Source: Methanothrix sp. (GTDB taxonomy: Archaea > Halobacteriota > Methanosarcinia > Methanotrichales > Methanotrichaceae). From it: a DNA stretch of 34,114 nucleotides. Within the stretch, counting starts at the first letter, position 1. Each line of letters starts with the position of its first letter. Under the pieces are notes generated by a model that was not told the DNA's origin, ran no database searches, and worked only from the letters and a program-made list of their open reading frames with translations. The translations under genes and the position numbers were made by a program. The stretch is from contig JANYKI010000134.1 in assembly GCA_025361645.1 (NCBI GenBank), forward strand, positions 1-34,114, in the 5' to 3' direction. Shown one piece after another: positions 3,473 through 28,920 of this stretch.

Positions 3473-4265
3473 ATAACTGATTGCGGCCTATTTTGGCTGA
3501 AGCTGATTGGCCTGAGTGCGAAGGAATGGAAAAGAAGGAGGGAGGCAAAAGTCTCAGGGATGTAGGAGGGAAGAATAGCCATCGACTTTCGCCAATATAC
3601 TATACGTCAATTGCCGAGATAAAAGGCTTTCGCTTCAAGTTTAGAAAAGACCATTCACCACCCCAAAGAAATAACCAAGAGACAGAAAATAGATATCAAG
3701 TCCCAGGCGGGCCAGCGCCAAATCCACAGCGCCCTTTTAAGTGGAGCCAATCACCGCATAGTGTTGGCCTGACCCTACCCGAAGCTCGACATTAAACTTG
3801 GCTTCGAAGGCGATACCTAGCGCTGGAATCTCACACAGCGTCCGAATTACCGGAACCCGTTCTCATGGGGCCTCATGCTCGCCCTCTCGCCTTTGGTTTG
3901 ACTTTTGCCGCATCATGCCCCGACCGTGTATTAGCGTGAGATCCGGCAGATTACTGCGCCAGTTACAGCGCGCAACTTTTTCAGACCGCCGAAATATCAG
4001 CCTCACAGGCTCGTAGCCAAATGCAGTGCCACGACGGCATGCATCTCCTGTACCAAGGGATTTTGATCGGCCAGCCCCATGGTGGGGCAAACACCCTTGT
4101 CATCAGAGCATCATTGGCTGCGTTAAGCCCACGGCACGCCCGCCACCCTATTCAATGGCATGAAGCGGCAAACTATGTATATAATCATTATAGATATTTG
4201 TAGTTGGCGGTCGAGAGTCGCCATAGACCAATAACAAAAATAGGGCTCTTCGCTATTTCCAATCC
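3473..4265. other. Gene-poor decayed stretch
   Basis: No convincing intact gene. All reading frames are short and none has a ribosome site plus recognisable protein. On the minus strand there are two coherent peptide fragments in different frames (4003-4107 and 3737-3862), suggesting a protein gene broken by frameshifts and stops. The segment ends at a dispersed repeat (4266-4349). Confidence 0.5.
3737..4107 (-). pseudogene. Possible remnant of an unidentified protein gene
   Basis: Reading the minus strand, one frame gives CSDDKGVCPTMGLADQNP and continues to HAVVALHLATSL before a stop at 4003. A different frame gives ERVPVIRTLCEIPALGIAF and then AKFNVELRVGSGQHYAVIGST before a stop at 3737. 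Both are well-formed peptides of low-repeat composition, unlike random translation, and they lie in the same orientation about 140 bp apart with stops between. I do not recognise the parent family; a mobile-element or metabolic gene are both possible. Confidence is low. Confidence 0.3.
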
Positions 4266-4412: not shown

Positions 4413-4820
4413 TCAAGCGGTAACTTTGGTCTTGGCGATGTACTTGATCAGCTCCGAGCCGATCCTGGCCTTCCTCTGGATCTGATTGGCCACGTCGTCT
4501 GCGGATGCGCCGCCTGCTGCCAGGGCGCGAATCTCCGCAAGCGTGCTGTCTTCCACGGTGAAGTACTCGTCCAGGTCCTTCCTGTGGCCCCATACGTCGC
4601 CTTCCAGCATCTCAATGCCCTGCATCTCCAGAAATACCTGGATGGCATTGGACATGGTCTTGCGGTAGGATGGCGGAACTTGAATCATCCTCAGCCTGGG
4701 ACACCTCTGCATCAGGTTAAGGAAATCTACATTGCTGGCCCGAAAAGCCAGATGAACGGTCTTCTCATTGGGGTTCAAATTGGGGATTTCATTTCTGGCG
4801 CTGATTACTCTAAGTCTCAT
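4413..4820 (-). CDS. DUF1699 family protein
   Basis: The 135-residue product begins MRLRVISARNEIPNLNPNEK and contains VHLAFRASN, a CPRLRMIQVPPSY segment and EGDVWGHRKDLDEY. These are hallmarks of DUF1699, a small family I know from Methanosarcinales and of unknown biochemical role. The C-terminal 45 residues resemble a small helical, possibly helix-turn-helix, module. The ATG at 4820 is preferred over an upstream in-frame start because GGAG lies 8 nt before it. It is 135 bp downstream of the UbiA gene on the same strand, probably with its own promoter. Confidence 0.8.
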   Translation of the reverse strand: MRLRVISARNEIPNLNPNEKTVHLAFRASNVDFLNLMQRCPRLRMIQVPPSYRKTMSNAIQVFLEMQGIEMLEGDVWGHRKDLDEYFTVEDSTLAEIRALAAGGASADDVANQIQRKARIGSELIKYIAKTKVTA

Positions 4821-4955
4821 TTTAGCACTCCAGACCTTAAACAGCATTCCTAATATTAATAGACACTTCCGCTGTACACATCATACTAAAACGATTGCGA
4901 CAGATGCAATCAGCACTAAAAATTTGGAATTTAGCACTGTACTGGAGTGATAAAT

Positions 4956-16450: not shown

Positions 16451-17695
16451 ATGGACTTCGCCGATATCTATCCTTTTTTGGTCGCCCTGCTCATAGGCGC
16501 ACTCATCGGCACGGAGCGGCAGCGCCGGCTGGTTGAGGATAAGGTGCGGGGCGTGGCAGGTCTACGCACCTTCGTCTTGATCGCCCTGCTAGGATCACTG
16601 TGCTCCGCTCTGGCCGTCCATTTCGGCCCCGGTTTTGCCATGGCATCCATGGCCACCTTCACCATCCTGGTGGCCGTAGGATATGCCGCTTCGATCAGCA
16701 CTCTGGGCAGAGTCGATTTCACAGCAGCCGTGGCTGCGGTTGTCACCTTCGCTTTGGGAATGCTGGCCGGCTTTCCCGATAGCATGCAATTAGCTGTGGC
16801 CCTGTCCATCATCACCACCTGGGTTCTGGCCACGCGAACTATCACGCACCATTATGTAGAAGTGCTAAGCGAGACGGATCTGCTAGATACCCTCAAGATG
16901 GGCATAATCGCCCTGGTCATCTATCCGCTCTTGCCCGAGACGCCCCTGGGCCCCTGGGGAGTTCTCAACCCCCGCCAGATCTGGCTCTTCGTGGTGCTGG
17001 TCAGCCTCATCGGCTACGTGGGCTACATCGCGATCCGCATCTTGGGTGCGGAGAGAGGCCTAAGCCTTACGGGCATCCTGGGCGGCCTGGTTTCCAGCAC
17101 CGCCGTTACCTCCTCCATGGCCGCGGAGGTGAGGGAGAGCCCCGAGATACTGCCCTCCGCCGTCTTCGCCACGGCCATCGCGAGCTGCACCATGTTCCTC
17201 AGAATCCTCTTCATCGTACTGCTAGTAAACAGGGATCTCTTCTTGGCCCTTTTGCCCCATCTGCTGCTCATGACGTTTGTGGGCGCGGCGTTGGCTTATT
17301 TGCTGGTCAGAAAGAACGCCCCGCAGGGAAAGGATGTGCCGGTGAAAGATCCCTTCCGCATCATACCCGCACTGAAGTTTGGTGCATTCTTCGCCTTTGT
17401 GCTCATCATCTCCAAGCTGGCCAATGTTTACTTCGGCGATGCGGGAATTTATGGGGCAGGCATTGTCTCCGGCCTGGCAGATGTCGATGCCATTGCCCTC
17501 ACCATGGCCTCCTTGGCCCAATCGACCGTCGTTCCCGCCGTGGCCGTCACCACCATCACCCTGGCCGCCATAACCAACACCCTGGTCAAGCTCATCCTGG
17601 CTTACGTGCTGGGGACAAGGGAATTTGGCAACAAGATGGCGGTGATCTTCCTGCCAATGGTAGTGGTGGGGCTCGTTGCGCTATTTTTCCTATGA
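16451..17695 (+). CDS. MgtC/SapB plus DUF4010 membrane protein
   Basis: The 414-residue polytopic protein begins with an MgtC-type segment (YPFLVALLIGALIGTERQRR, then GVAGLRTFVLIALLGS) with the conserved TERQRR and GLRT patterns. It continues into a DUF4010 C-terminal half (ERGLSLTGILGGLVSSTAVT, GAGIVSGLADVDAIALTMAS). Around eleven hydrophobic helices are visible. MgtC relatives take part in magnesium stress and envelope homeostasis; the archaeal fusion has no assigned substrate. No Shine-Dalgarno is obvious before the ATG, so a leaderless or short-leader transcript is likely. Confidence 0.85.
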   Translation: MDFADIYPFLVALLIGALIGTERQRRLVEDKVRGVAGLRTFVLIALLGSLCSALAVHFGPGFAMASMATFTILVAVGYAASISTLGRVDFTAAVAAVVTFALGMLAGFPDSMQLAVALSIITTWVLATRTITHHYVEVLSETDLLDTLKMGIIALVIYPLLPETPLGPWGVLNPRQIWLFVVLVSLIGYVGYIAIRILGAERGLSLTGILGGLVSSTAVTSSMAAEVRESPEILPSAVFATAIASCTMFLRILFIVLLVNRDLFLALLPHLLLMTFVGAALAYLLVRKNAPQGKDVPVKDPFRIIPALKFGAFFAFVLIISKLANVYFGDAGIYGAGIVSGLADVDAIALTMASLAQSTVVPAVAVTTITLAAITNTLVKLILAYVLGTREFGNKMAVIFLPMVVVGLVALFFL

Positions 17696-17845: not shown

Positions 17846-17919
17846 TGGGCCCGACGCGATTCGAACGCGTGATCCCCGCCGTGTAAGGGCGATGTCATAA
17901 CCAGCTAGACCACGGGCCC
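17846..17919 (-). tRNA. tRNA-Val (TAC)
   Basis: The minus strand folds as a cloverleaf: acceptor GGGCCCG/CGGGCCC, T arm GCGTTCGAATCGC, anticodon loop CTTACAC with anticodon TAC, discriminator A, and no encoded CCA. A TATA-like TCTAATATGA lies upstream near 17945. Confidence 0.92.
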
Positions 17920-18018
17920 TGCCTCTTTCACTATCTCCTCGTCATATTAGATCTTATCGCTCCTATGCCTTCGATGCGTAGTCCCGAAACCTTTGACTTT
18001 ATTACTCATCAATGTGGC

Positions 18019-18198
18019 ATGGGAAAGAAGAATAAAGTCGTAAAGCTAACTGATAGGAAGATCAGATATATCATTCTGGAAAGGATCATTGATTTCCAGC
18101 ACGGAAAGCATATCCCGCATAATGCCATTCATAAGGAACTGCTATCTCATGGTTTGGCCAATTTGAACCGCAACAAATCGAAGCGCAGAAAACCCTGA
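18019..18198 (+). pseudogene. Truncated IS481-type transposase remnant
   Basis: The frame reads MGKKNKVVKLTDRKIRYII, the helix-turn-helix start of IS481-type archaeal transposases. It then jumps straight to HIPHNAIHKELLSHGLANLN and KSKRRKP, which in intact copies lies much further along, and stops there. The intervening HTH region and the whole DDE catalytic domain are missing. It lies 100 bp from tRNA-Val, and the next piece is an LRV-gene fragment, consistent with a rearranged insertion site. Confidence 0.65.
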
Positions 18199-18210
18199 AT
18201 TCGGTTCGAA

Positions 18211-18337
18211 TCTAACCCATCCTCCCCCGCGCCGCCTTCTGCACGCTCTGATCCTGATCCTCGGCCAACCGTTTCAGTGTCTCGGCAAGGGTATTGCGAT
18301 TTTGCGCCACAGCCGCCCGCATAATTCATGAACGATG
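18211..18337 (-). pseudogene. 3'-end fragment of an LRV/HEAT-repeat gene, copy 1
   Basis: Minus-strand translation from ATG 18322 gives MRAAVAQNRNTLAETLKRLA, then EDQDQSVQKAARGRMG and a stop at 18212. It matches the last repeat of the full LRV gene at 19910-20749. Upstream of the ATG the frame has a TGA. Its 5' edge (TCGTTCATGAATTATG) matches the edge of copy 2. Confidence 0.8.
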
Positions 18338-18619
18338 GTGGAATCCAGATTGGACAACGGGGCAGAATCACGGCTACGCCGGAGGACAGACCCGTTGGTG
18401 CTCTAGCCCCCGATCCGACTGGAAGACGGCGACTGACGGGAGTTAGTGCACGGTGAGGCGGGGAATGGCGAGTATCCCTGGTCTGTGGTCAATGTCAGGA
18501 AGTGTGGTGAATGGATCATGTTTTTTCGTCCTGCGAACTCTCTGGATTGAGGAAAGCAGATTCATTTCCCATAAACTTAACATATAATAAAGAGCCATAC
18601 CGAAAATAGAGGGATTAAA
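18338..18619. other. Unexplained stretch between LRV fragment and small secreted gene
   Basis: Contains no supported gene. It has two blocks: a GC-rich one at about 18365-18470 and an AT-rich upstream region (CTTAACATATAATAAAG) that may be the promoter of the next gene. Confidence 0.35.
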
Positions 18620-19009
18620 ATATCTAAGAACGCCAACAGGGCACAGTGGATACTGTTATTTGCATCGCTAATTTGGGTTTTATTCCCGTCTGTTGAAGCT
18701 CAAGCAGGAATATGCCCGAATTATTATGGTCCGTATGAACCTAATCCCACGGGGCAAACTGGTTGCGAAAATATGATGCAACCGGGAACCTATAATATTC
18801 AGTGGGCTCATGGGCCCCAGAGCAATTGGGATTGGCAGTTTTGGGATCAATTAGATATGAAGGCAAACATGAAGTACGTGCTGACGTATGACTCAAGTGG
18901 AGAACTATCAATTGATGAATCGGAAGATTCAGGCTTAACCGGATATACTGTGATTTGCGGTAGAAACAATGGATTAGATGAATTCGGTTTCTGCCTAGAG
19001 CCGATATGA
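18620..19009 (+). CDS. Small secreted protein, start codon apparently altered
   Basis: From 18620 the frame reads ISKNANRAQWILLFASLIWV and then LFPSVEAQAG, a clear signal peptide, followed by ICPNYYGPYEPNPTGQTGCE, WDWQFWDQLDMK, YVLTYDSSGEL and a C-terminal pair of Cys (VICGRN, FGFCLEPI). The position that should be a start codon is ATA (18620), with GGG 6 nt upstream; no ATG, GTG or TTG precedes the signal peptide in frame. The first ATG at 18773 would lose the signal. It may use a non-standard start or be a recent pseudogene. The family is not recognised. Confidence 0.55.
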   Translation: MSKNANRAQWILLFASLIWVLFPSVEAQAGICPNYYGPYEPNPTGQTGCENMMQPGTYNIQWAHGPQSNWDWQFWDQLDMKANMKYVLTYDSSGELSIDESEDSGLTGYTVICGRNNGLDEFGFCLEPI

Positions 19010-19208
19010 AATACAAATCAGGAAGAACATTTTAGATCCCATCCGTATTCTGACAGGTGGATAGAACTTTGCCTCGATCCCACATCATTATATGAATGGG
19101 TGGTTAGGTCAAAGTGGCTTTAAGCAGATTTTGGGAAGTCGCATGCGGTACTATGAATAACTTGCAGACTCCCAAGATGTGCTCGGTTTTTTTTATCTCG
19201 CGCATCCA

Positions 19209-19337
19209 TCTAACCCATCCTGCCCAGCGCCCCGCCTTCTGCACGCTCTGGTCCGGATCCTCAGCCAGTCGTTTCAGTGTCTCGGCAGGATTATGGCGAT
19301 TTTGCGCCACATCCGCCCGCATAATCCATGAACGATT
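19209..19337 (-). pseudogene. 3'-end fragment of an LRV/HEAT-repeat gene, copy 2
   Basis: Minus-strand translation gives NRSWIMRADVAQNRHNPAET, then LKRLAEDPDQSVQKAG, before a one-base shift alters the tail (RWAGWVRWMRE). It is the same repeat unit as copy 1 and the end of the full gene. It shares the TAACCCAT 3' edge and the preceding GCGCATCCATC with the full gene. Confidence 0.8.
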
Positions 19338-19391
19338 GTCTCAGATCAAAGAACCGTAAGGTATAGATAAAGTCAGAATATAACGCATGGC

Positions 19392-19892
19392 ATGAAAAAA
19401 ATATTTGTGGCTCTGTATTTAGCGGTCTTATGTACCAGTGTCCTAGCCTTGGCAGAAGAACGGAGCTATCAATCAGCAAATTTGACAGAAAAAACAAGTA
19501 TCGAAAAACAGGTAAACCTCAATCAAAGCGAATTTCAATTAGTTCAGGTCAATCTCATTGATCTAGCCCAACAAAAGAGTGTGGACACGAAGGACGGTCT
19601 CAATATAACTCAAGTGGCATCTGGGAAGAATGCCAGCGTCAATTTAGTAATGGGTCCCACCGGCTCGATCCTAAAGATGCACTATCATCAATACCATGAT
19701 GAGATAACCTATTGCATTAAAGGCCAGGCCGTCATGAACGTATCCGGCAAGGAATTAGTGATGAAAGCCGGAGATCTGATGTACATACCGGCATTAATGC
19801 TCCATGGATCAGAAGTAACCGGCAATGAAACTTTGCAGCTCATCTCTATCTTTACACCACCATTTGACGGGAAAGACAGAATTTACGTTTAG
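19392..19892 (+). CDS. Secreted cupin-domain protein
   Basis: The 166-residue product has a signal peptide (MKKIFVALYLAVLCTSVLALAE) and a single cupin barrel. Motif 1 is LKMHYHQYHDEITYCIKG, with metal-binding His residues and Glu; motif 2 is AGDLMYIPALMLHG. Cupins bind metals and act as isomerases, dioxygenases or binding proteins; the export signal suggests an extracellular ligand role. It sits between LRV fragment 2 and the full LRV gene, on the opposite strand. Confidence 0.8.
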   Translation: MKKIFVALYLAVLCTSVLALAEERSYQSANLTEKTSIEKQVNLNQSEFQLVQVNLIDLAQQKSVDTKDGLNITQVASGKNASVNLVMGPTGSILKMHYHQYHDEITYCIKGQAVMNVSGKELVMKAGDLMYIPALMLHGSEVTGNETLQLISIFTPPFDGKDRIYV

Positions 19893-19909
19893 TCAAACAG
19901 CGCATCCAT

Positions 19910-20749
19910 CTAACCCATATTCCCTCGTGCCGCCTTCTGCACGCTCTGATCCGAGTCATCGGCCAACCGTTTCAGTGTCTCGGCTGTGGTATTGGAATTT
20001 TGCGCCACAGCCGCCCGCACCATCCAGGACCAGTGCCCGGACAGCTCATCCAGAATCTTGCCCTCCAGCAATTCATTGCAGGCCAGCGCTTCTCTAACCT
20101 CCCAGCTCCTGTCGGTAGCGAGAACGGCCAGCGCCCCCGCGGGCGTGCGGGGATTTTGCGCCGCCGTTACCCGCACATCCAAAATCCTGTCGGCTGAGAG
20201 ATAGGTAAGCAGATCCATCGGGGTGGACGGGTTCTTGGCGATGTTGTTTCGCACCTCCCAGAACACATCCTTGACCATCTTGCTCATCGATTCCACAGAT
20301 AGAAGGGGATTGGATGCCGCCGCGGCTCGAACATGCTCCTCAGAGTCACGGGCGAGAAAGGCCAGGGTCGATGGATTGATGTTCGGGCTCTTTGCCGTCG
20401 CCTCCTTTACAAGATAGCGATTCTTCTGCAAAGTGCAATCGTAGTCCACCATCTCATCTGCCGCCAGCATCTCTAAAATCTCGCATGCGGCGCGGCGATT
20501 CAATGCCACCGCCGCCCGCACATATCCGGAGCTGTCCTCGGCTAGCCGGGCCAGTGCCGGCGCTGATGCGCTTGCATTGCCGGCTACCGCTTCCCTCACC
20601 CATTGCACCTTGTCCCTGGATAAGAATTCCAGGATATTCTCTGGCACATCAGCACTCCAGGCCACTTTTCTTCGCACGTGCCAGTCCCAGGAGCGGGAGA
20701 GCCCTTCTGCATCGTCCAGTCCTTTTTTGTCCTCTTGTGGCGCGCTCAT
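19910..20749 (-). CDS. LRV/HEAT-like repeat protein
   Basis: The 279-residue product is built of about nine helical repeats with the pattern VR.AVA.NP...L..LA.D, as in WHVRRKVAWSADVP, YVRAAVALNRRA, HVRAAAASNPLL, DVRVTAAQNPRTP and MVRAAVAQNSNTT. This is the leucine-rich-repeat-variant or HEAT class, a protein-protein interaction scaffold. The start is 3 nt after the stop of the Vms1-like gene, so the pair is an operon. Two detached copies of its last repeat lie at 18211 and 19209. Confidence 0.8.
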   Translation of the reverse strand: MSAPQEDKKGLDDAEGLSRSWDWHVRRKVAWSADVPENILEFLSRDKVQWVREAVAGNASASAPALARLAEDSSGYVRAAVALNRRAACEILEMLAADEMVDYDCTLQKNRYLVKEATAKSPNINPSTLAFLARDSEEHVRAAAASNPLLSVESMSKMVKDVFWEVRNNIAKNPSTPMDLLTYLSADRILDVRVTAAQNPRTPAGALAVLATDRSWEVREALACNELLEGKILDELSGHWSWMVRAAVAQNSNTTAETLKRLADDSDQSVQKAARGNMG

Positions 20750-20752
20750 TTT

Positions 20753-21691
20753 TTATATCTCAATTCTGTAGCAGGTAAAGCCATAAACCTCTTCCAAAAG
20801 CTCCTTTGTCTTTCGTTCCTCGTGCCGCTCCAGCCTTCTCTCTATCACAGGTAGACCAATGCCGGGGGCGAACTGGCGGATGAGGCTCTCTTCGCCCGAA
20901 AGCACGGCGTACTTGAGGAGGGTTTTATACTTGCCCATCATCTCGGCCAGCTTTTCCTGCACCATATCAAGGTGACTCTTGATATCCTCCTCACGTAGCC
21001 TCTCAAACCTTTTCTGGCTCCAGCCGCCTTTGGAGTGCTTGCCCATTACCGAGCTATCCACCTGCTCCTCTGCCTCGAAGCCCTCCCGGGAAAGAGCCAC
21101 CCCTAAGAAGGTCTCTCCGGCATGGGCAGAGACGACCAGCACGGGCGTGTCCATCATCTCCTCCAGGGAATCGAGTGCAAAAATGCTGCCTTCCCGAGAA
21201 TAGCTCTCCTGGATGGGAAAAGGTGGGATGAGTTGCAGAGAGAAGAGCTGAGGACTATGCAGGATTATTCCGCCTCGCTGGGACTTGATGGCGGAAGCTG
21301 CTTTTTTGATTTGCGAAGGGAGGGTATCGTCCTCTGGAACGAGTCCTGGGTAAAAAGCAACCAGCAGATCATCCTTAGGAGAGCGGCAGGCCTTGAGCCT
21401 CTCCATAAGCAGATCCATCTCCCGCAAGCTCAGCTTTCTTGCCTTTGGCTTTTGCTCTTCACACCTCTCCATCGCAGTCGGCGTAGGGGTGGTGAGGGCG
21501 GCGGCCTTTTGCTCGGCGGCTTTGAGGGCTAAATTTGCCTCCTGGTTGGCAGAGGAGAGTTTGCGCATCTTCTCGTCCCGCTTTTCCAGGGTGCGCAGGA
21601 GTTCCTCCTTTTCGTCCTCCAGCTTGGCCAGGGCGGCCTGCAGCTCCAAAATGCGATCGTCCAGCTTCTTTTTGCCGAAGAGGTCTACCAA
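20753..21691 (-). CDS. Vms1/ANKZF1-like (VLRF1) peptidyl-tRNA hydrolase
   Basis: VLRF1 proteins cleave peptidyl-tRNA on stalled 50S or 60S subunits during ribosome rescue. The 312-residue product has an N-terminal coiled coil (about residues 10-65, rich in Glu, Lys and Leu) and a release-factor-like domain: TPVLVVSAHAGETFLGVALS, then VMGKHSKGGWSQKRFERLRE, where GGWSQ takes the place of the catalytic GGQ-type loop, then a helical region. The start is a TTG at 21691 with a strong AGGAGG 8 nt upstream. It is followed 3 nt later by the LRV-repeat gene. Family call is good; activity is inferred. Confidence 0.75.
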   Translation of the reverse strand: MVDLFGKKKLDDRILELQAALAKLEDEKEELLRTLEKRDEKMRKLSSANQEANLALKAAEQKAAALTTPTPTAMERCEEQKPKARKLSLREMDLLMERLKACRSPKDDLLVAFYPGLVPEDDTLPSQIKKAASAIKSQRGGIILHSPQLFSLQLIPPFPIQESYSREGSIFALDSLEEMMDTPVLVVSAHAGETFLGVALSREGFEAEEQVDSSVMGKHSKGGWSQKRFERLREEDIKSHLDMVQEKLAEMMGKYKTLLKYAVLSGEESLIRQFAPGIGLPVIERRLERHEERKTKELLEEVYGFTCYRIEI

Positions 21692-26194: not shown

Positions 26195-26764
26195 TTACTC
26201 GCCTACACAGGATTTCTTCCTAACTCCGTAGCTTTTGGCAAACTCGCGGTTAACCTCGACCACTTCCTCATTGAAGTGCTTGAGGCTCTCGGGAACAGGC
26301 CCCAGCGCATCGGCCTTCTCCTGCGTATCAACCAGGGCGCCATGCGGCACGAACTTGCCGTCTGCCAGCGTGACGCCTATAACTGCCGCCGCATGGCCGA
26401 CAAAGCACTTCTTGCCCAAAGTGGAGGCATGAACCACGGAGTTAAAGCCCACAAAACTCTCGTCCCCTATCTTCATGGGCCCGTGAATTACGGCACCATG
26501 AGCTATGGAGATCTTTTTTTCGAGCTTAATGGAGCTGCCCATCAGACCGTGGAAGACAACGCCGTCCTGGATGTTGCACTTATCACCGATGATGATGGGG
26601 TTGGCCTCGTCCGCTCGCAGGGATACGCACGGGCCCACATAAACCTCCTCTCCGATGCGCACATCGCCGATAACCACAGCGGATTCGTCCACGTAAGCCG
26701 TTGCTGCCACCGTTGGTAGGCATTCATTGCTGTTCCATGATGTCTTAGGGTTGGCTTTAAGCAT
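26195..26764 (-). CDS. Gamma-class carbonic anhydrase, CamH type
   Basis: The 189-residue protein is a left-handed beta-helix of hexapeptide repeats (VVIGDVRIGEEVYVGP). It keeps Arg50, Glu53, His72, His89 and His94, matching Arg59, Glu62, His81, His117 and His122 of Methanosarcina Cam. The Arg50 to His72 and His89 to His94 spacings match exactly. It lacks the acidic loop between His81 and His117, so it resembles CamH. It interconverts CO2 and bicarbonate. The ATG at 26764 has AGGTGGTG just upstream. It is divergent from the OFA transporter 27077, and a 5' remnant copy lies at 28458-28628. Confidence 0.88.
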   Translation of the reverse strand: MLKANPKTSWNSNECLPTVAATAYVDESAVVIGDVRIGEEVYVGPCVSLRADEANPIIIGDKCNIQDGVVFHGLMGSSIKLEKKISIAHGAVIHGPMKIGDESFVGFNSVVHASTLGKKCFVGHAAAVIGVTLADGKFVPHGALVDTQEKADALGPVPESLKHFNEEVVEVNREFAKSYGVRKKSCVGE

Positions 26765-27076
26765 ATTAGCACCACCTATCCACGGCATTGGCCATTCACC
26801 TTAAAAGAGATTGCCATGAACGATGATTTGCATAGAGACTTATCTACTATTGTCGAATGGCGATAGATAATCTCCTTTAATCAAGGCAGCTTTTTTGGAT
26901 TGGCAGGGTGCGCACCGAATACTAATGTAGATTAACTACAAAATTTTTGCAATATGTATAAAATTATAATCTATAATCGCGATAGTTGTTATAATTGCCG
27001 CTAAATTTAAATATATGTGGGACAAAATTAGATCCAAGTGATTAAAAACACTCAGATATACGAAGGTGTGTAACTT
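26765..27076. promoter_or_regulatory. Divergent carbonic anhydrase / OFA1 promoter region
   Basis: A 312-bp, AT-rich intergenic region. A TATA box TTTAAATATA at 27006-27015 fits the plus-strand transporter, with the ATG 62 bp after the box. Similar sequence recurs at 28636-28790. Confidence 0.55.
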
Positions 27077-28369
27077 ATGGCAGAAGATGTGAAGATATTG
27101 GGCATGCCACCTGAATCTGGGCGATGGCTGCTGATAATTATTGGAACAATTATCGAGCTTTGTCTCGGTGCAGTGTATGCTTATAGTATAATTAGCGTTC
27201 CTTTGAAAAAGATATTTACTGCTCCCGTCGCTGATGGGGGCTTTGGATTAACCGTTAGCGCCATGCAGATGTCGCTTCCTTACATCGCATCCCTGGCGTT
27301 CTTTGCCCTGACCATGCCATTGGTCGGCAAATACATTGAAAAATATGGACCGCGAAAAGTAGGAATGCTGGGCGGCGTCATCGTAGGCCTGGGCTGGATC
27401 TTGGGTTCCACAGCCACATCTCCTACGATGCTTATGATTCTGTACGGCGTTATCGCAGGTATTGGCGTGGGCATCGCATACAACTGTCCCATCACCACCG
27501 CAGCCAGATGGTTCCCTGACAAGCGCGGCCTGGCCGTGGGATTGACACTTCTGGGGTTCGGATTCTCCGCATATATCACCGGCAAAATGTCGGAGATAAT
27601 CTCTGCGAGCTTCGGCGGAGTTTTCGGCTCCATGCGCATCTTAGGCATAGCATTTTTGATCATAATCGTGGTCCTCTCCATGTTCCTGGTCTTCCCTCCC
27701 GCTGGCTGGACCCCCCGTGGCTGGAAGCCGCCTGTAGCTGCTGCCGGAGGCAAGAAGACCGATTACATGAGAGATGAGATGTCAAAGAACAAGGCGTTCT
27801 ATGGCCTCTGGATCTGCTATGTGATCGGTGCACTGGCCGGACTGATGGCCATCGGAGTTGCCAAGCCTGCTGGCCTGGAAGTGGCAGCAAATGCCATGAT
27901 TGCAGAAGCTGACATAACCCAGAAACTAACTGACCTCACTTTGATCTTCGCATTCTGCAATGCCGTAGGCAGGCCGCTATTCGGCACTCTGACCGATAAG
28001 CTCACACCACCCAGGACGGCTATTCTGTCCTATGTGATCATCATAGCGGCTTCCCTGCTGATGTACACTAATCCGGCATCAATTACCATGTACACGGTTG
28101 CCTTCGCCCTGCTCTGGCTCTGCCTGGGCGGCTGGCTGGCCATCGCGCCGGCTACAACAGCGAGCTACTTCGGCACCAAGGACTACGCCCGAAACTATGG
28201 CCTGGTCTACACCGCATATGGCGTCGGCGCCATCATTGGAAATTTAATGGCAGGAGCTGCCAAGGACATGCTGGGCGGCTATGTCAATGTCTTCCCATAT
28301 GTGGCCGTACTGGCAGCATTGGGCATTATCGTGGCCTTTGTAATGGTAAAACCACCGAACGAAGCTTAA
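27077..28369 (+). CDS. OFA-family MFS transporter, copy 1
   Basis: The 430-residue protein has twelve hydrophobic helices. IIELCLGAVYAYSII is the first, RWFPDKRGLAVGLTLLGFGF is the loop 2-3-like signature, and FGTLTDKLTPPR lies in the second half. OFA (oxalate:formate antiporter) members carry small carboxylates. The carbonic anhydrase neighbour fits acetate, formate or bicarbonate transport, but the substrate is an inference. AGGTGTG precedes the ATG, and a T8 run (28374-28381) follows the gene. Confidence 0.85.
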   Translation: MAEDVKILGMPPESGRWLLIIIGTIIELCLGAVYAYSIISVPLKKIFTAPVADGGFGLTVSAMQMSLPYIASLAFFALTMPLVGKYIEKYGPRKVGMLGGVIVGLGWILGSTATSPTMLMILYGVIAGIGVGIAYNCPITTAARWFPDKRGLAVGLTLLGFGFSAYITGKMSEIISASFGGVFGSMRILGIAFLIIIVVLSMFLVFPPAGWTPRGWKPPVAAAGGKKTDYMRDEMSKNKAFYGLWICYVIGALAGLMAIGVAKPAGLEVAANAMIAEADITQKLTDLTLIFAFCNAVGRPLFGTLTDKLTPPRTAILSYVIIIAASLLMYTNPASITMYTVAFALLWLCLGGWLAIAPATTASYFGTKDYARNYGLVYTAYGVGAIIGNLMAGAAKDMLGGYVNVFPYVAVLAALGIIVAFVMVKPPNEA

Positions 28370-28373
28370 ATAA

Positions 28374-28381
28374 TTTTTTTT
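28374..28381 (+). terminator. T-run terminator after OFA1
   Basis: Eight T in a row a few bases after the OFA1 stop. Archaeal termination often occurs at such U-rich tracts. Confidence 0.5.
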
Positions 28382-28457
28382 GCTTAATATTGTCCTGTGT
28401 GGGTATTGTTTTTTTATTTTGTCTTTGGTTTTTAGCATAAACGTATATCCTGTGCTG

Positions 28458-28628
28458 GAAGATCAGGAGATTAGCCTCGCTCGTTCGCAGGGATACGCGA
28501 GGTGCCACGTAAACATCTTCACCAATGCGCACATCGCCTATGATCATTGCGGATTCGTCCACGTATGCCGTTGCTGCAACCGTTGGCGTGTATTCATTGC
28601 TTAGCGATAGATAATTTCGCGGGATCAT
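28458..28628 (-). pseudogene. 5' remnant of a second gamma carbonic anhydrase gene
   Basis: Minus-strand translation from ATG 28628 gives MIPRNYLSLSNEYTPTVAAT, then AYVDESAMIIGDVRIGEDVY, VAPRVSLRTSEANLL. It parallels the start of the intact gene (PTVAATAYVDESAVVIGDVRIG...). It breaks off before all of the zinc His residues. The frame runs on into transporter 1 sequence on the other strand without homology. Confidence 0.88.
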
Positions 28629-28920
28629 TGCTGCTTTTTTGGATCGGCGGTGTGTGCATCGAATACGAATGTAAATTGACCACGATATTTTTGCGATATG
28701 TGTAATATTATAATCTATAATCGCTATAATTGCCGCCAAATTTAAATATATGGGAGATGAAATTAGGTCCAAGCCATTGAATAATATCTCAGGGTGAGGG
28801 AGGGGATAAGGAGGGATCTAATAAAAATAGACTCATGGAAACTTTCATCCTTAATGCATATTATATTTATTGACTGTATTGAATGAGAATAAATCGTTAT
28901 CATCGAAAGGTGTTAAACTT
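28629..28920. promoter_or_regulatory. OFA2 upstream region, duplicated promoter plus insertion
   Basis: The segment 28636-28790 matches 26885-27056, with TATA box TTTAAATATA at 28741-28750. Between it and the gene, about 28790-28905 is extra, including a second TATA-like ATTATATTTATTG at 28860-28872. The GGTGTTAAACTTATG at the gene start matches OFA1. Confidence 0.6.

Follow-up and report, generated by a model that had tools for sequence, protein, structure and literature searches.

Based on the comparison of repeats, genes and genomes across the genus, we lean towards the reading that the three gene ends found at the LRV locus of Methanothrix sp. mark cassette-like insertions behind the LRV gene. 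The window, i.e., the whole analysed stretch of 34,114 nt, is contig C73 of a genome (G000) of 2.43 Mb in 141 contigs with a completeness of 97%. According to the mechanism proposed here, a cargo gene and a diverged LRV 3′ end, together forming a short DNA unit, would join the chromosome by recombination inside the common ~120 nt. The LRV gene would remain whole with its last ~110 nt replaced, the cargo would end up behind it, and a 5′-truncated copy of the 3′ end would remain at the far side of the cargo. Two such units would be present at the locus, one of the cupin gene and copy 2, the other of the small secreted-protein gene and copy 1. We infer the order of events, a circular or otherwise free intermediate, and a single homologous crossover in place of a dedicated recombinase.

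The repeat comparison showed three direct copies of 122 nt each (Table 1) with start-to-start spacings of 1000 and 698 nt, which bears out, coordinates included, the first-pass annotation of three LRV 3′ ends in the same orientation about 0.7-1.0 kb apart. The secreted-protein gene and the secreted cupin gene that it had placed between them on the opposite strand were both found as well, on the + strand, with the LRV gene on the - strand. The pairwise identity among the copies is ~80-88% (E 1e-35 to 1e-41 within the own genome). Around the stop codon, 19 nt (GCGCATCCATCTAACCCAT) are identical between copies 2 and 3, which also have in common TAGATGGATGCGC at the stop and after it. A search of all 2.43 Mb of the own genome yielded no fourth copy of the LRV end; a dispersed repeat element was rejected, as the own genome has the copies here only.

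Table 1. Features of the LRV locus and of the RM-end arrays; positions are those of the window unless a contig is named.
Feature	Position	Strand	Basis or remarks
tRNA-Val	17846..17919	-	beside DUF4010 gene 16451-17695, kept so in the genus
Remnant of a transposase-bearing insertion sequence (IS)	17975..18210	+	internal deletion; cut off at copy 1
Copy 1, 5′-truncated LRV 3′ end	18210..18331	-	repeat comparison, genome search
Copy 1 flank, common with the stray LRV fragment of G016:C60	18332..18426		88% over 209 nt, flank and fragment
Segment X	18459..18493		92% over 36 nt with G015
Small secreted-protein gene, second cargo, without canonical start codon	18617..19009 (about)	+	relatives in 6 genomes, own included
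Copy 2, 5′-truncated LRV 3′ end	19203..19336 (122-nt repeat 19210-19331)	-	repeat comparison
Putative inserted cupin unit, 563 bp	19337..19899	+	55 nt leader and 7 nt past the stop; 95.2% to G015:C38
Secreted cupin gene, 166 aa, signal-like N-terminus	19392..19892	+	Cupin_2 5.3e-14; G015 orthologue on another contig
Copy 3, 3′ end of the LRV gene itself, judged exchanged vs sister genome G015	19900..20029 (122-nt repeat 19908-20029)	-	identity, dS, change point
LRV gene, 279 aa, anchor	19910..20749	-	Pfam LRV PF01816
RM-end array	L172:13474-17690 (G000:C16); further L217 (G015:C68), L218-L224, L226, L230		~200-nt repeats
Unit order, G000			RM-Mrr-123/HEPN-ParE-PIN
Unit order, G015			RM-ParE-147/70-Mrr-123/HEPN-PIN165-79/PIN135
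Unit order, G021			RM-147/70-ParE
Unit order, G016			RM-PIN160-79/PIN
Unit order, G011			RM-ParE-PIN159-PIN131

The anchor gene passed the curated cut-off of LRV PF01816 in four stretches (2.1e-30, 103 bits) and sits downstream of a release-factor-like gene (20753-21691). Its single-copy orthologue is present in 22 of the 26 Methanothrix genomes, own included, and the order of the two genes is kept in every relative with flanking DNA examined. The DNA 3′ of the LRV stop differs among relatives, with the thermosome in G014 and G015 and other genes elsewhere. LRV-end copies outside the LRV gene occur in only two of the 26 genomes, the own one and G016, the sole extra piece outside the window being a 109-nt fragment in the latter. 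The wreck of several LRV genes, which had been suggested earlier, would mean that a series of tandem genes decayed and left the ends alone. The common orientation of the copies, each carrying the last repeat and the stop codon, agrees with such decay, yet we consider it exceedingly improbable: every relative with the gene has one LRV gene, behind the same upstream gene, and no second full or tandem LRV gene was found in any of the 26 genomes; of each supposed gene only the last ~120 nt would be left, and what lies between copies 2 and 3 is a precisely delimited cargo unit that is also present elsewhere. Likewise, complete LRV genes at the place of each copy were looked for in relatives and were not found among the 26 genomes.

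By sequence comparison, the cupin gene is judged foreign to the LRV spot, having come from elsewhere or moved, because the 563 bp that copies 2 and 3 enclose have their counterpart elsewhere in the nearest sister genome, G015. The match on G015:C38 (95.2%) ends at copy 2 and just short of copy 3, and in G015 the cupin is found on a different contig and not behind the LRV gene, though the body of the latter is 94% identical. Moreover, the left end of the unit, TCTCAGATCAAAGAAC, is the same in G000, G015, G019 and G020, and the sequences ahead of it differ. Both the coincidence of the cupin borders with copies 2 and 3, together with the presence of the unit at another site in G015, and the left end common to four genomes with different upstream sequence support cassette-like insertion. 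Just ahead of the G015 cupin there are a 162-nt copy of the end of an RM gene (described below) and a broken antitoxin-like reading frame, the cupin itself lying ~220 nt behind the RM-end repeat. On the other hand, copies 2 and 3 are just 80% alike, as opposed to the 95% of the cupin unit against G015; copy 2 is too divergent for a recent duplicate of the present LRV end, which was rejected, and its not being a fresh duplicate counts against the cassette-like reading. The G015:C38 locus (L078) is itself a mosaic: its short pieces are 80-95% identical to sequences dispersed over the genome of the window, and two of these matches fall inside the window (3532-3918 and 4413-4944).

The second cargo belongs to a real family of small secreted proteins, the relatives being 47-73% identical. 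The window copy has no ATG, GTG or TTG ahead of the signal peptide, unlike its paralogue on contig C12 of the same genome, which has ATG, and so it may be decaying or using a rare start codon. The C12 paralogue is flanked by 77-nt direct repeats that are 99% identical; this, along with the adjacency of the G015 cupin to an RM-end repeat, was taken as support for insertion in the manner of cassettes. At that paralogue's locus (L080:637-1439, G000:C12), the direct repeats measure 77-105 nt and are 95-99% identical.

The comparison of the LRV genes of G000 and G015 showed an identity of 94.2% over the first 720 nt and of 78.3% over the last 120 nt, with dS rising from 0.15 in the body to 0.72 in the last 120 nt and dN from 0.036 to 0.151. 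The change point lies at window position 20015, on the border of the repeated unit (permutation p=0.0002), and the five control genes RF, MBL, Trx, DUF4010 and cupin showed no comparable drop over their last 120 nt in the same pair of genomes. Because identity drops at the repeat border, dS rises and the control genes are flat, the last ~110-120 nt of the LRV gene are judged to have been exchanged in G000 or in G015, which of the two the 113 alignment columns do not tell, and this supports the cassette-like reading. Fast C-terminal evolution instead of exchange was rejected for this pair, as synonymous change is up fivefold and the control genes are flat. Significant drops at the LRV end were also detected for G014 against G000, G015 and G016, and none was significant among G003, G020 and G021, between G007 and G018, or between G004 and G022. 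Between G011 and G025 the drop takes in no more than the final ~30 nt and amounts to ordinary drift. The exchange would mean that the C-terminal repeat of the LRV protein changes hands along with the downstream neighbourhood of the gene. Nor does copy 2 stand out as the original end after displacement: it is 80% identical to the LRV end of G015 and copy 3 is 78% identical, a further point against cassette-like insertion.

The truncated copies have a history in common. Copies 1 and 2 and the G016 fragment read CGTTCATGRATTATGCGGGCGG where the LRV genes read close to TGGTCCTGGATGGTGCGGGCGG, the changes common to the three fragments are absent from all LRV genes, and the tree of the tails groups the three with a support of 0.95, its 113 columns resolving the fragment family only. 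Also, the 95 nt that flank copy 1 are found again beyond the edge of the G016:C60 fragment. Given these common changes, the tree and the flank, the fragments would derive from one truncated end and not from separate break-offs, and their sequences assign copies 1 and 2 and the G016 fragment to one family that was copied or moved, in line with the cassette-like reading. The first-pass annotation had copies 1 and 2 breaking off at the same point, and both do bear TCGTTCATG at the 5′ edge; weak homology to the LRV gene extends past this edge by a few nt, and the common break point is inherited, as the G016 copy has the same edge.

Between copy 1 and the small secreted-protein gene, segment X, which in G015 comes straight after the LRV stop and has there its sole match in the genus besides itself, would mark DNA that once adjoined an LRV gene. 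Next to copy 1 the region lies at a rearrangement junction, and the DNA that follows this IS remnant is a different one in G015 and G008. With the remnant and the breakpoint at its side, the LRV locus has a partly decayed look today. As the remnant and the rearrangement adjoin copy 1, a serious rival for this locus is a patchwork formed at the breakpoint, in which breakage brought the LRV operon and the tRNA-Val side together and fragments of nearby DNA, the LRV end included, were copied as repair filler, with no cassette system here. The different DNA behind the IS remnant speaks for it, as do the widely varying downstream neighbours of LRV among relatives and the mosaic of scattered pieces around the G015 cupin. 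We nonetheless hold it to be rather unlikely in view of the single family of truncated fragments, which is also present in G016, the identical left end of the cupin unit in four genomes and the exchange of the LRV gene's own end.

Elements that integrate into gene ends offer another explanation of the copies. Phage 21 and e14 integrate at the 3′ end of icd and supply a replacement for it. The Methanothrix locus resembles such 3′-end integrative elements in its whole anchor gene, exchanged end and displaced fragment at the far side, and differs from them in that the units are ~1 kb or less and no recombinase gene was seen in them. SGI1 at trmE is a further integrative element at a gene 3′ end (PMC8409611). 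That the copies are remnants of tyrosine-recombinase elements, with the LRV 3′ end as their attachment site and a replacement end brought in by them, would account for insertion at a gene end, for the exchanged final ~120 nt and for the displaced fragment, all of which such elements leave behind, and for the 19 identical nt at the stop of copies 2 and 3. We regard it as improbable, because no recombinase gene lies between the copies, none was noticed among the reading frames read downstream of LRV in relatives, and the units, at 0.7-1.0 kb, fall short of the size of known elements. A viral carrier was rejected, as two defining patterns had no exact match in viral contigs.

The cassette-like reading gains support from a second gene. 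By sampling stretches of the own genome, an approach by which other anchor genes may be missed, an Eco57I-type RM gene was found on G000:C16. Four repeats of its 3′ end stand behind it, and between them lie an Mrr nuclease, a HEPN-domain gene and its partner, a ParE-like toxin and a PIN-like gene. Matches to the end of this gene are present in 17 of the 26 genomes, often as arrays (about ten genomes). In these arrays a ~200-nt copy of the RM end comes after each cargo unit; most units are toxin-antitoxin and some are nuclease units. From the unit orders in Table 1, we judge that units have been gained, lost and reordered among species, and reordered units in about ten genomes lend weight to insertion of the same kind behind LRV. 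The RM repeats are more alike within one array than between arrays (0.805 vs 0.745, permutation p 0.0005), although most of those of G000 and G015 pair by position or cargo. The part of the RM gene ahead of the repeated end is hypervariable and the end is conserved, a pattern that a crossover block at the end would be expected to give. The link between the LRV locus and the RM arrays is architectural, with no common repeat sequence noticed, and this, like the position of the region at a rearrangement junction, counts against reading the LRV copies as cassettes. The same is true of the lack, in all relatives among the 26 genomes, of an LRV array with different cargo. The earlier suggestion that the gene end serves as a recombination point for swapping cargo is thus upheld in sequence comparison by the exactly bounded cupin unit, the exchanged LRV end and the reordered RM arrays, and falls short in that no varied cargo was found at LRV.

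In orphan toxin/immunity modules behind cdiA and rhs genes, 5′-truncated 3′ ends of the main gene stand with cargo and are exchanged by homologous recombination. The Methanothrix loci are similar in the 5′-truncated ends lined up with cargo behind a main gene; the differences are that here the repeated end is conserved and not the cargo, and that the LRV protein is no polymorphic toxin. Integrons and CALINs (attC clusters without integrase) were described in 75 archaeal MAGs of nine phyla in a paper whose text mentions neither Methanothrix nor Methanosaeta (PMC9668308). The likeness to them consists of small gene units in arrays, many of them toxin-antitoxin, each followed by a similar repeat, and gained, lost and reordered. 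Unlike in integrons, the Methanothrix repeat derives from a resident protein gene, of which it is the 3′ end, and is not attC, and the LRV cargo points opposite to the anchor gene. An array of exchangeable units split by similar repeats is found in the RM arrays, and the LRV locus has two units in one genome only. No IntI-type integrase (TIGR02249) was matched over the curated cut-off in the 26 genomes, or at E 1e-3 in the own genome. A pattern search for the attC core pair (RYYYAAC...GTTRRRY) matched none of the 38 RM repeats and none of the 3 LRV copies, and strong single-strand folding of the repeats was absent (z-scores -1.7 to +1.4). An integron was rejected, as integrase, attC core pair and special folding were all not found. 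In the literature, nothing matching cassette arrays with RM and toxin-antitoxin genes was found; coverage was incomplete, and novelty is stated with caution.

More tentatively, and with less confidence than for the LRV locus itself, Methanothrix might possess a cassette system that has neither attC nor integron integrase. A resident gene, chiefly RM with LRV as a lesser anchor, would offer its 3′ end as the exchange site for small cargo, toxin-antitoxin pairs foremost, through homologous recombination or an as yet unrecognised recombinase. If this is true, gene cassettes can be collected and reordered without integron machinery, part of an ordinary gene being the docking site. The RM arrays would then represent many natural experiments in about ten genomes, in which the crossover position and the need for a recombinase become testable.

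Other repeats were noted in passing. In G020:C165 (L040:6489-8135), a gene downstream of LRV has its 3′ end directly duplicated with methyltransferase genes between the copies, possibly a further case of the design. In L174:9851-13823 (G000:C30), toxin-antitoxin-like genes separate several direct repeats of ~390 nt, possibly another array. Within the window, a gamma-carbonic-anhydrase-like gene and a transporter gene form an apparent tandem duplication at 26195-28781, the second copy of which (28326-28772) is broken.
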